A DNA stretch of 36,121 nucleotides from Anaerolineales bacterium (GTDB lineage: Bacteria > Chloroflexota > Anaerolineae > Anaerolineales > Villigracilaceae): NCBI GenBank assembly GCA_020060235.1, contig JAGVAO010000214.1, positions 1 through 36,121 of the forward strand, given 5' to 3'. Shown piece after piece: positions 34,712-36,121 of this stretch. Position numbers and translations under genes: made by a program. The number at the start of each line of letters is the position of its first letter. Within the stretch, counting starts at the first letter, position 1. The notes under the pieces are model-generated. The model saw only the letters and a list, made by a program, of their open reading frames with translations, did not search any database and was not told the DNA's origin.

Positions 34712-35638
34712 ATGCCGGGACTTTTAATCCTTTCCAAGCAGGCCGATGCTTACCGCTCCTTGCTCGAAGCGGCAAACCTGCCCGATTTGCAAATTCTGGA
34801 TGCTGGGCAGGCCGGGAATTTCGCGCTGTCTGAGATTGTTTTCGGCGAACCGGATTTGATTCGCGCCCAACTACCGGGCCTGGGCGGCCTGAAGTGGGCG
34901 CAATCGACCTGGGCCGGGGTCGAGCCGCTGCTGGACCCGTCCCTGCGCCGGGATTATGTGTTGAGCAACGCACGCGGGGTCTTTGGCGGGCTAATGTCTG
35001 AGTTTGTGCTGGCGTATTTGTTGCTGCATGAACGCAAGGTTTTGCGGCGTCTTGCGGCCCAACAGGAGCGCCGCTGGGACGCGACCCTGACCGGAACCCT
35101 GCGCGGCAAGACAATTGGCCTGTTAGGGGTCGGCTCGATTGGCGCAGAACTGGCGCGGACCGCGCGCTTTTTGGGGATGAAGGTGCGCGGCTACACCCGC
35201 GCCAGCGAAGATTGCGAATTTGTGGACGAGTATTATCACGCCGGGCGGCTGCTTGATTTTGCCACTGGCCTGGACTACCTGGTAGCGAGTCTGCCTGCCA
35301 CTCCTGACACGCGTCGGGTGGTCGATGCGGCACTGCTGGCCCGCCTGCCTGCCCACGCGTTGTTCATCAACGTCGGGCGCGGCTCGGCGGTGGACGATGC
35401 GGCGTTAATCGCGGCCCTGCAGTCGGGCGCGTTGGCCGGGGCGGTGCTGGACGTTTTTTCGCAGGAGCCGCTGTCGCCAGCGCATCCATTTTGGGCGACG
35501 CCAAATGTCCTGATTACCAGCCACACCTCCGCGCCGAGTTTCCCGGCGCAGATTGCCGGTTTGTTTATCGAAAACTATCGCCGCTATATTGCGGGCCAGT
35601 CGGTTCTGTACCAGGTTGATTTTGAACGGGGATATTAG
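34712..35638 (+). CDS. D-isomer-specific 2-hydroxyacid dehydrogenase
   Basis: A 308-residue NAD(P)-dependent enzyme reducing 2-oxoacids such as glyoxylate or hydroxypyruvate. The catalytic part starts weakly conserved (LLILSKQADAY), then TWAGVEPLL and LSNARGVFGGLMSEFVLAYLL. The cofactor domain has LLGVGSIGAELAR (GxGxxG 139-144). Catalytic Arg223 (VGRGS), Glu252 (QEPL) and His271 (SHTSAP) are present. It is somewhat short, like the GhrA branch. It is coupled to the SDR gene, with AGGGGTG before the ATG. Confidence 0.9.
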   Translation: MPGLLILSKQADAYRSLLEAANLPDLQILDAGQAGNFALSEIVFGEPDLIRAQLPGLGGLKWAQSTWAGVEPLLDPSLRRDYVLSNARGVFGGLMSEFVLAYLLLHERKVLRRLAAQQERRWDATLTGTLRGKTIGLLGVGSIGAELARTARFLGMKVRGYTRASEDCEFVDEYYHAGRLLDFATGLDYLVASLPATPDTRRVVDAALLARLPAHALFINVGRGSAVDDAALIAALQSGALAGAVLDVFSQEPLSPAHPFWATPNVLITSHTSAPSFPAQIAGLFIENYRRYIAGQSVLYQVDFERGY

Positions 35639-35763
35639 ATTCTACAACGAATGGCGGATTTTTCTGTCCAGACAAGCGTTTACAGATGTGCAATTAAACT
35701 TTAAGGAACAAAACAGGTGTTTTTATTGTATGATGTCTTTAGAAGTTACTTCCGTTCGCATGA

Positions 35764-35905
35764 AAGGAGGTTCAAATCGAAACAATGGAACCGTACAACA
35801 TGAGGGGAAAGGCCGGGGTGAAAGTTTCCTCCTGGTGATGCTGTAAGAAAGCCGCTCCCAGATGTCCACCTCGACACGAAGAAGGTTTCCCGTCCTTTCC
35901 TCGGC
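35764..35905 (+). ncRNA. Candidate structured RNA or leader element, class not recognised
   Basis: This lies in a 465-base gene-free stretch (35639-36103). Pairings seen are GGTTC (35769-35773) with GAACC (35788-35792); GGGGAAAGG (35804-35812) with CCTTTCCTC (35894-35902, one G-U); and a competing GCCGGGG (35812-35818) with CCTCGGC (35899-35905). GGGAAA may also pair with TTTCCC at 35886. Downstream, CGTTGCA (35929-35935) pairs with TGCAACG (35979-35985), and a strong terminator ends the region. No protein-coding frame looks real. The plus strand is assumed from the terminator and the flanking genes. A TATGAT at 35729-35734 is a possible -10. It matches no riboswitch or RNA class that I can recall. 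Confidence 0.45.
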
Positions 35906-36013
35906 AAGAACGTTTTTGCTGGTAAGTGCGTTGCAAGTGTAAAGATGTTTTGGCAAGTGATTTGTAAAGGGGTGCAACTGCAACGGTAAAAACAACTTAA
36001 AATAAGTGCAACA

Positions 36014-36045
36014 AAGCCGATGGATGACCTCCATCGGCTTCTCTT
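36014..36045 (+). terminator. Intrinsic terminator closing the candidate RNA
   Basis: AAGCCGATGGA (36014-36024) and TCCATCGGCTT (36030-36040) form a perfect 11-bp stem with loop TGACC, followed by CTCTTT. It lies about 60 bases before the next gene's start. Confidence 0.85.
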
Positions 36046-36075
36046 TGCGCTTGACGGCGCGTGCATAATCAGTTT

Positions 36076-36084
36076 TGGTATTAT
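36076..36084 (+). promoter_or_regulatory. Extended -10 (TGGTATTAT) for the partial gene at the end
   Basis: TGG followed by TATTAT. An upstream TTGACG (36051-36056) is at 22 bases, too far for a standard pair. It lies after the terminator and before AAGGAG, so the last gene appears to have its own promoter. Confidence 0.5.
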
Positions 36085-36103
36085 TTTCGCTTAAGGAGCG
36101 GTT

Positions 36104-36121
36104 ATGAAAAAAGGCCTGGCA
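36104..36121 (+). CDS. Start of a gene cut by the window edge
   Basis: ATG at 36104 with TTAAGGAG upstream encodes Met-Lys-Lys-Gly-Leu-Ala before the sequence ends. The Lys-Lys start would suit a signal peptide, but six residues cannot identify it. Confidence 0.5.

Follow-up and report, generated by a model that had tools for sequence, protein, structure and literature searches.

The gap near the 3' end of the window (the whole stretch of DNA analysed, 36,121 nt) almost certainly contains a member of a previously undescribed RNA family, which sequence comparisons place in many bacteria of a single family of the Anaerolineales (Chloroflexota). Our preferred reading, held tentatively and at somewhat under even chances, is of a free-standing structured RNA with its own promoter and terminator and a weak-start reading frame ending in the main helix (P1), whose shape would be gated by translation initiation.

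Locus and comparison with known RNA classes

The RNA region lies in the gap between a dehydrogenase ORF (34712-35638) and the end of the contig, with all of its features on the forward (+) strand. The window takes in the whole contig, and the final 99 bases are shared with the end of contig C67, on which the next gene continues. This overlap (36023-36121) is an exact 99-bp match to G000:C67:22383-22481, typical of an assembler k-mer, and C67 carries that gene (MKKGLA..., 138 aa) along with a SAM-methyltransferase gene in convergent orientation. Hairpins and other features that a first-pass annotation had listed for the gap are present in the sequence, including an 11-bp intrinsic terminator with its stem at 36014-36024/36030-36040. 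The boundaries given there, 35639-36045, were slightly wide, as the transcript is predicted to run from about 35741 to 36047, with its core at 35762-35907, and 35660-35735 is conserved promoter and upstream DNA. The earlier observation was real, as is the RNA itself; it caught the RNA and terminator and missed the Shine-Dalgarno sequence and mini-ORF.

The proposal that this structured RNA falls outside known classes was borne out by covariance models. No Rfam 15 family matched in the window at gathering, none matched in 35300-36121 up to E 5, and none matched among 18 homologous loci up to E 0.5; the families covered by these scans include the Chloroflexi-1 motif (RF01698), listed in PMC2864571. 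ARAGORN found no tRNA or tmRNA in the window, and the tmRNA (RF00023) of the source genome (G000) is found elsewhere, at C34:10225-10625 (155 bits), so that identity with tmRNA was rejected. Identity with 6S RNA (RF00013) was likewise rejected because its single match in G000 is at C218; 6S RNA is also a structured stand-alone RNA of similar length, but has no sequence or structure match to the RNA described here. Anaerolinea is not mentioned in PMC8632094 or PMC11109978, two later papers that deal with novel structured RNAs.

Distribution across genomes

In nucleotide searches, the region was about 80% identical in three congeners only. A first covariance model (R1), built from the window and these three congeners (four sequences), recovered full-length relatives in 59 of 152 genomes from the same family, and a second (R2), built from 48 sequences, gave matches in 96 of 400 genomes of the order, 87 of those in the same family; both searches were strictly filtered, so absences within the family are uncertain. 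Outside the family only one R2 match was better than 1e-3 (G336, from another family), and in the class and phylum samples (396 and 400 genomes) matches were found inside the family only, with no strong match beyond it. Examples are the members in G033 and G114, which came to light via their promoter and which the model afterwards confirmed; L146, a pattern match labelled Bipolaricaulota, was unconfirmed by the model and set aside. Relatives that carry names are Anaerolineales or Chloroflexi metagenome genomes, including HGW-Chloroflexi-6, Candidatus Villigracilaceae and a Brevefilum isolate. Most genomes have one copy. Two copies 1.1-1.3 kb apart, adjoining small lipoprotein or methyltransferase genes, can also be seen in some (L070-L073).

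Secondary structure and covariation

As judged from the aligned sequences, the decisive evidence for the RNA is comparative and not its folding energy. The 407-nt stretch folds better than 100 of 100 dinucleotide shuffles (z -2.4), and the core alone does not differ significantly from its shuffles (z -0.46). An alignment of four sequences contained zero double changes and was uninformative, so family-wide homologues were needed. A search for covarying pairs in relatives, as proposed with the first-pass annotation, found covariation in three helices (P1, P2 and P3) across the family. P1 is formed in the window by CCTTTCCTC (35894-35902) pairing with GGGGAAAGG (35804-35812) and is continued by P1b, in which CGGG (within 35814-35818) pairs with CCCG (35889-35892); the 3' strands, CCCG and CCUUUCCUC, thus occupy 35889-35902. 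P2 is a hairpin at 35832-35861, pairing CUGG (35832-35835) with CCAG (35858-35861), and P3 is a hairpin at 35863-35876, UGUC [CACCUC] GACA, which varies between CGUC/GACG, CGUU/AACG and UGUC/GACA. Across the three helices, 87-88% of pairs are kept. In a MAFFT alignment, which was not fitted to the structure but from which the structure was derived, two-sided changes are seen at 17 of 22 pairs, and double-change cells number 119, compared with 40.5 +/- 8.6 when shuffled and no more than 46 with partners slid. The model alignment shows two-sided changes in 21 of the 22 pairs, and 247 double-change cells versus 92 in the control.

Two long-range stems that share bases had been described as the mutually exclusive pairings of a switching RNA. 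One of these, P1, is real and covarying, forming 7.2 of 9 pairs on average in 88 relatives. The other, in which CCTCGGC (35899-35905) could pair with GCCGGGG (35812-35818) in the window, averages 3.3 of 7 pairs and is complete in only 2 of the 88, both from the window's own genus; this alternative stem was rejected as not conserved. Two further candidates were also dropped, namely a conserved 5' hairpin, which covaries by eye in some genera and is missing in the largest genus, and a switch pairing the 3' strand of P1 with the RNA's own Shine-Dalgarno sequence, which is dominant in only a few relatives.

A pseudoknot between the P3 loop and sequence just downstream is possible, pairing ACCU (35868-35871) with AGGU (35883-35886) in the window (35868-35886 overall) and CCAC/GUGG, ACCAA/UUGGU or CCGC/GCGG in relatives. 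True partners outscored permuted ones in 2000 of 2000 trials, a count that does not control for relatedness and is inflated by common descent to an unquantified degree, and in the largest genus the pairing mostly amounts to two or three pairs.

Promoter, terminator and neighboring genes

An extended -10 promoter element, TTGTATGATG (35726-35735, with TATGAT at 35729-35734), is found across genera at a fixed distance before the RNA, and from it the 5' end is predicted at about 35741. Upstream lies a conserved block, TCTGTCCAGACAAG...TTTACAGAT...TAAGGAAC (35660-35709), which includes a -35-like region (35700-35709) and is near-invariant in G001, G002 and G004. In relatives the promoter is laid out as TTTTAATGTA, about 17 nt and TTGTATGATG, stopping a few bases short of the RNA; TTTTAATGTA occupies the -35 place in most of them, and the window's own genus, including the window, has diverged there. 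The promoter consensus upstream of the RNA is TTTTAATGYA-N-TTGTAT. A looser form of this motif turns up in 57 of the 152 family genomes, as a single copy in nearly all of them and, where positions were compared, mostly directly before the RNA. The promoter is nearly private to the RNA family. This rare motif also stands before a collagen-like lipoprotein gene at L189 (G068:C91) and L190 (G069:C44), which has cysteine motifs suggestive of a cytochrome and its own start-less GGAGG further down; a special regulator or sigma factor may be what the motif serves. A palindrome resembling TGTCYRGACA (CTGTCCAGACAAG, TCTGTCTGGACAA), a possible transcription-factor site, is seen at 35663-35690 and before the promoter in several genera.

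At the other end, the intrinsic terminator (36014-36047) combines the 11-bp stem with a U-rich tail, and relatives have a conserved terminator sequence, GGCGGAUGGGU..CCCAUCCGCC-U, at the same place. The downstream gene, whose identity varies, converges on the RNA in 45 of 56 loci and is co-directional in 11, and the upstream gene is divergent in 33 of 57. From this arrangement the RNA is read as a transcription unit in its own right, about 190-310 nt long. The presence of a dedicated promoter and terminator, together with the usually convergent neighbor, argues against cis-regulation of that neighbor, and the ligand switch for the next gene that the first-pass annotation implied is unlikely. 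The RNA often lies just after, and convergent to, a gene for a PLP-dependent aminotransferase (MalY/PatB-like; L065, L067, L069, L080 and L094-L098), a conserved synteny without an evident functional link.

A probable mini-ORF without a canonical start

A near-perfect Shine-Dalgarno sequence, GGAGG or GGAGT, was found in 87 of 88 distinct homologues (AAAGGAGGT, 35763-35771 in the window). It is locally more paired than in shuffles (0.64 versus 0.47), and full-length folds leave little of it free (mean unpaired 0.20), which points, more weakly than for the helices, to its partial burial in local pairing. Behind it a likely mini-ORF, predicted from sequence conservation, begins in the window at a near-cognate ATC and reads (I)ETMEPYNMRGKAGVKVSSW* (35776-35838). 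The frame usually starts 4-7 bases after GGAGG, and its first codon in 87 relatives is ATA in 49, ATC in 27, ATT in 1, ACC in 5, GTC in 4 and ACA in 1, so that 77 have AUH at the spacing proper to the Shine-Dalgarno sequence. By composition, ATG, GTG or TTG would be expected 3-10 nt after GGAGG in about 19% of sequences; none of the 87 has one. Nine of the 10 relatives without ATH carry an ATG 14-17 nt from GGAGG. In eight of these the ATG shares the frame; in L057, which has an insertion, the reading can be followed by eye from its own ATG to the usual stop. The remaining relative (L079) shows ATA at the normal distance. In G336, the distant member, an ATG 13 nt away also leads, by eye, to the usual stop. 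As a normal start codon is never where it would be expected, weak translation is probably by design.

Reading reaches its first stop at codon 12-17 in 78 of 87 relatives and in 16 of 19 sequence clusters, compared with 14% for random sequence, although the homologues are related, so that these and the other ORF counts are not independent and are inflated by common descent to an unquantified degree. No clustering of stops at codons 12-17 was seen in the other two frames. TAA, TGA and TAG, the only codons used, interchange at the conserved place, which is just past the 5' strand of P1. Because the frame ends on this strand, a translating ribosome would have to open P1. In the window, an extra G in the G run at 35815-35818 shifts the frame near its end and puts the stop a few codons further downstream than in most relatives. 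The synonymous fraction of changed codons is 0.42 in frame versus 0.26 and 0.19 in the other frames; part of this signal, from Pro-Pro codons in the largest genus and the P1 codons, may come from RNA pairing and not coding. In a Brevefilum-like subclade (L117, L150 and L155) a second, degenerate Shine-Dalgarno/mini-ORF unit lies between the promoter and the main unit.

Possible link to IF3 and alternative explanations

The initiation codons resemble those of infC, the gene for IF3, whose first codon is ATA or ATC, preceded by a GGAG Shine-Dalgarno sequence, in all seven family genomes checked (L216-L222). IF3 represses the ATT start of Escherichia coli infC, the ATC start of Streptomyces infC and the GTC start of sigR (PMC5472188). 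Taken together, these suggest that the RNA uses the IF3-controlled class of starts, or else a misplaced AUG. In infC and Streptomyces sigR (PMC5472188), as here, a strong Shine-Dalgarno sequence is followed by AUU, AUC, AUA or GUC at the start position, and low, regulated initiation would be expected for the RNA as well; those are full protein genes, whereas here a frame of about 12-17 codons sits inside a free-standing structured RNA. A deliberately weak start, either a well-spaced AUH or an AUG at a distance of about 14 nt or more, would make initiation rare under normal IF3 stringency and leave P1 closed. ACC, the first codon in five relatives, is not known to be an IF3-controlled start, which counts against this reading. 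Under permissive initiation, through low IF3 relative to ribosomes or another initiation change, ribosomes would read the frame and open P1 and P2, freeing the pyrimidine-rich 3' strand. The opened RNA would then act in trans, and the partners of this strand might be purine-rich Shine-Dalgarno regions in other RNAs. Initiation gating, IF3 dependence and action in trans are what we infer from these features, and the fuller proposal, a stand-alone RNA family with a strong ribosome-binding site and a non-canonical or misplaced start as its hallmark, serving as a trans-acting sensor of translation-initiation stringency, is put forward with greater reserve, at about one chance in three.

A small ORF, here predicted from sequence comparison, on a stand-alone RNA with a terminator is also found in dual-function sRNAs such as SgrS/SgrT and VcdRP; these encode a normally translated small protein beside a pairing region, whereas the present RNA has a noncanonical start and an ORF that overlaps its main helix. 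It is unlikely, though worth weighing, that the RNA is a noncoding sRNA acting in trans, in which GGAGG and the open frame reflect constraints at the RNA level (the local Shine-Dalgarno hairpin and P1) and translation has no role. Such an sRNA would fit the free-standing unit, the pairing of the Shine-Dalgarno sequence in full-length folds, the placement of codons 4-5 opposite that sequence in the largest genus and the several late codons that vary at position 2 instead of 3, but not the complete absence of canonical starts, the ATG that appears where AUH is lost or the kept stop position with its exclusive use of stop codons.

Somewhat less probable is a 30S-binding decoy or tmRNA-like template, whose Shine-Dalgarno sequence would capture ribosomes and hold or rescue them, the frame being a quick exit. 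The near-perfect Shine-Dalgarno sequence and missing canonical start agree with this, and the RNA shares with tmRNA (RF00023) its own promoter and terminator, a short frame without a canonical start whose stop lies beside a hairpin, and a possible pseudoknot, resembling the mRNA-like part. However, no tRNA-like domain was seen, the RNA has a Shine-Dalgarno sequence, a normal tmRNA is present elsewhere in the genomes, and AUH starts like those of infC agree with initiation. An mRNA encoding a micropeptide of about 12-17 residues, with a 3' structure that stabilizes it, is doubtful to a slightly greater degree: the frame is conserved and residue 2 is E or D, but the peptide differs almost wholly between genera, its middle codons vary at all positions and the helices are better conserved, so the peptide was rejected as the conserved product on account of its variability. 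That the RNA is a cis-acting riboswitch or attenuator controlling the next gene is very improbable. A structured RNA ending in a terminator would suit such a role, and a leader-peptide attenuator likewise has a short ORF whose translation would disrupt a helix, but the RNA has no consistent co-directional downstream gene, its terminator ends the unit, the alternative stem is not conserved and no Rfam riboswitch matched.

The preferred reading, a free-standing RNA gated by initiation, is new as regards the family; the principle on which the RNA works may prove to be a variant of translation-coupled regulation that is already known. Should the weak-start mini-ORF be a sensor, the family would provide a free-standing RNA readout of initiation fidelity. 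An RNA family of such depth that has its own promoter and is missing from Rfam represents a sizeable gap in knowledge of the uncultured Anaerolineales.
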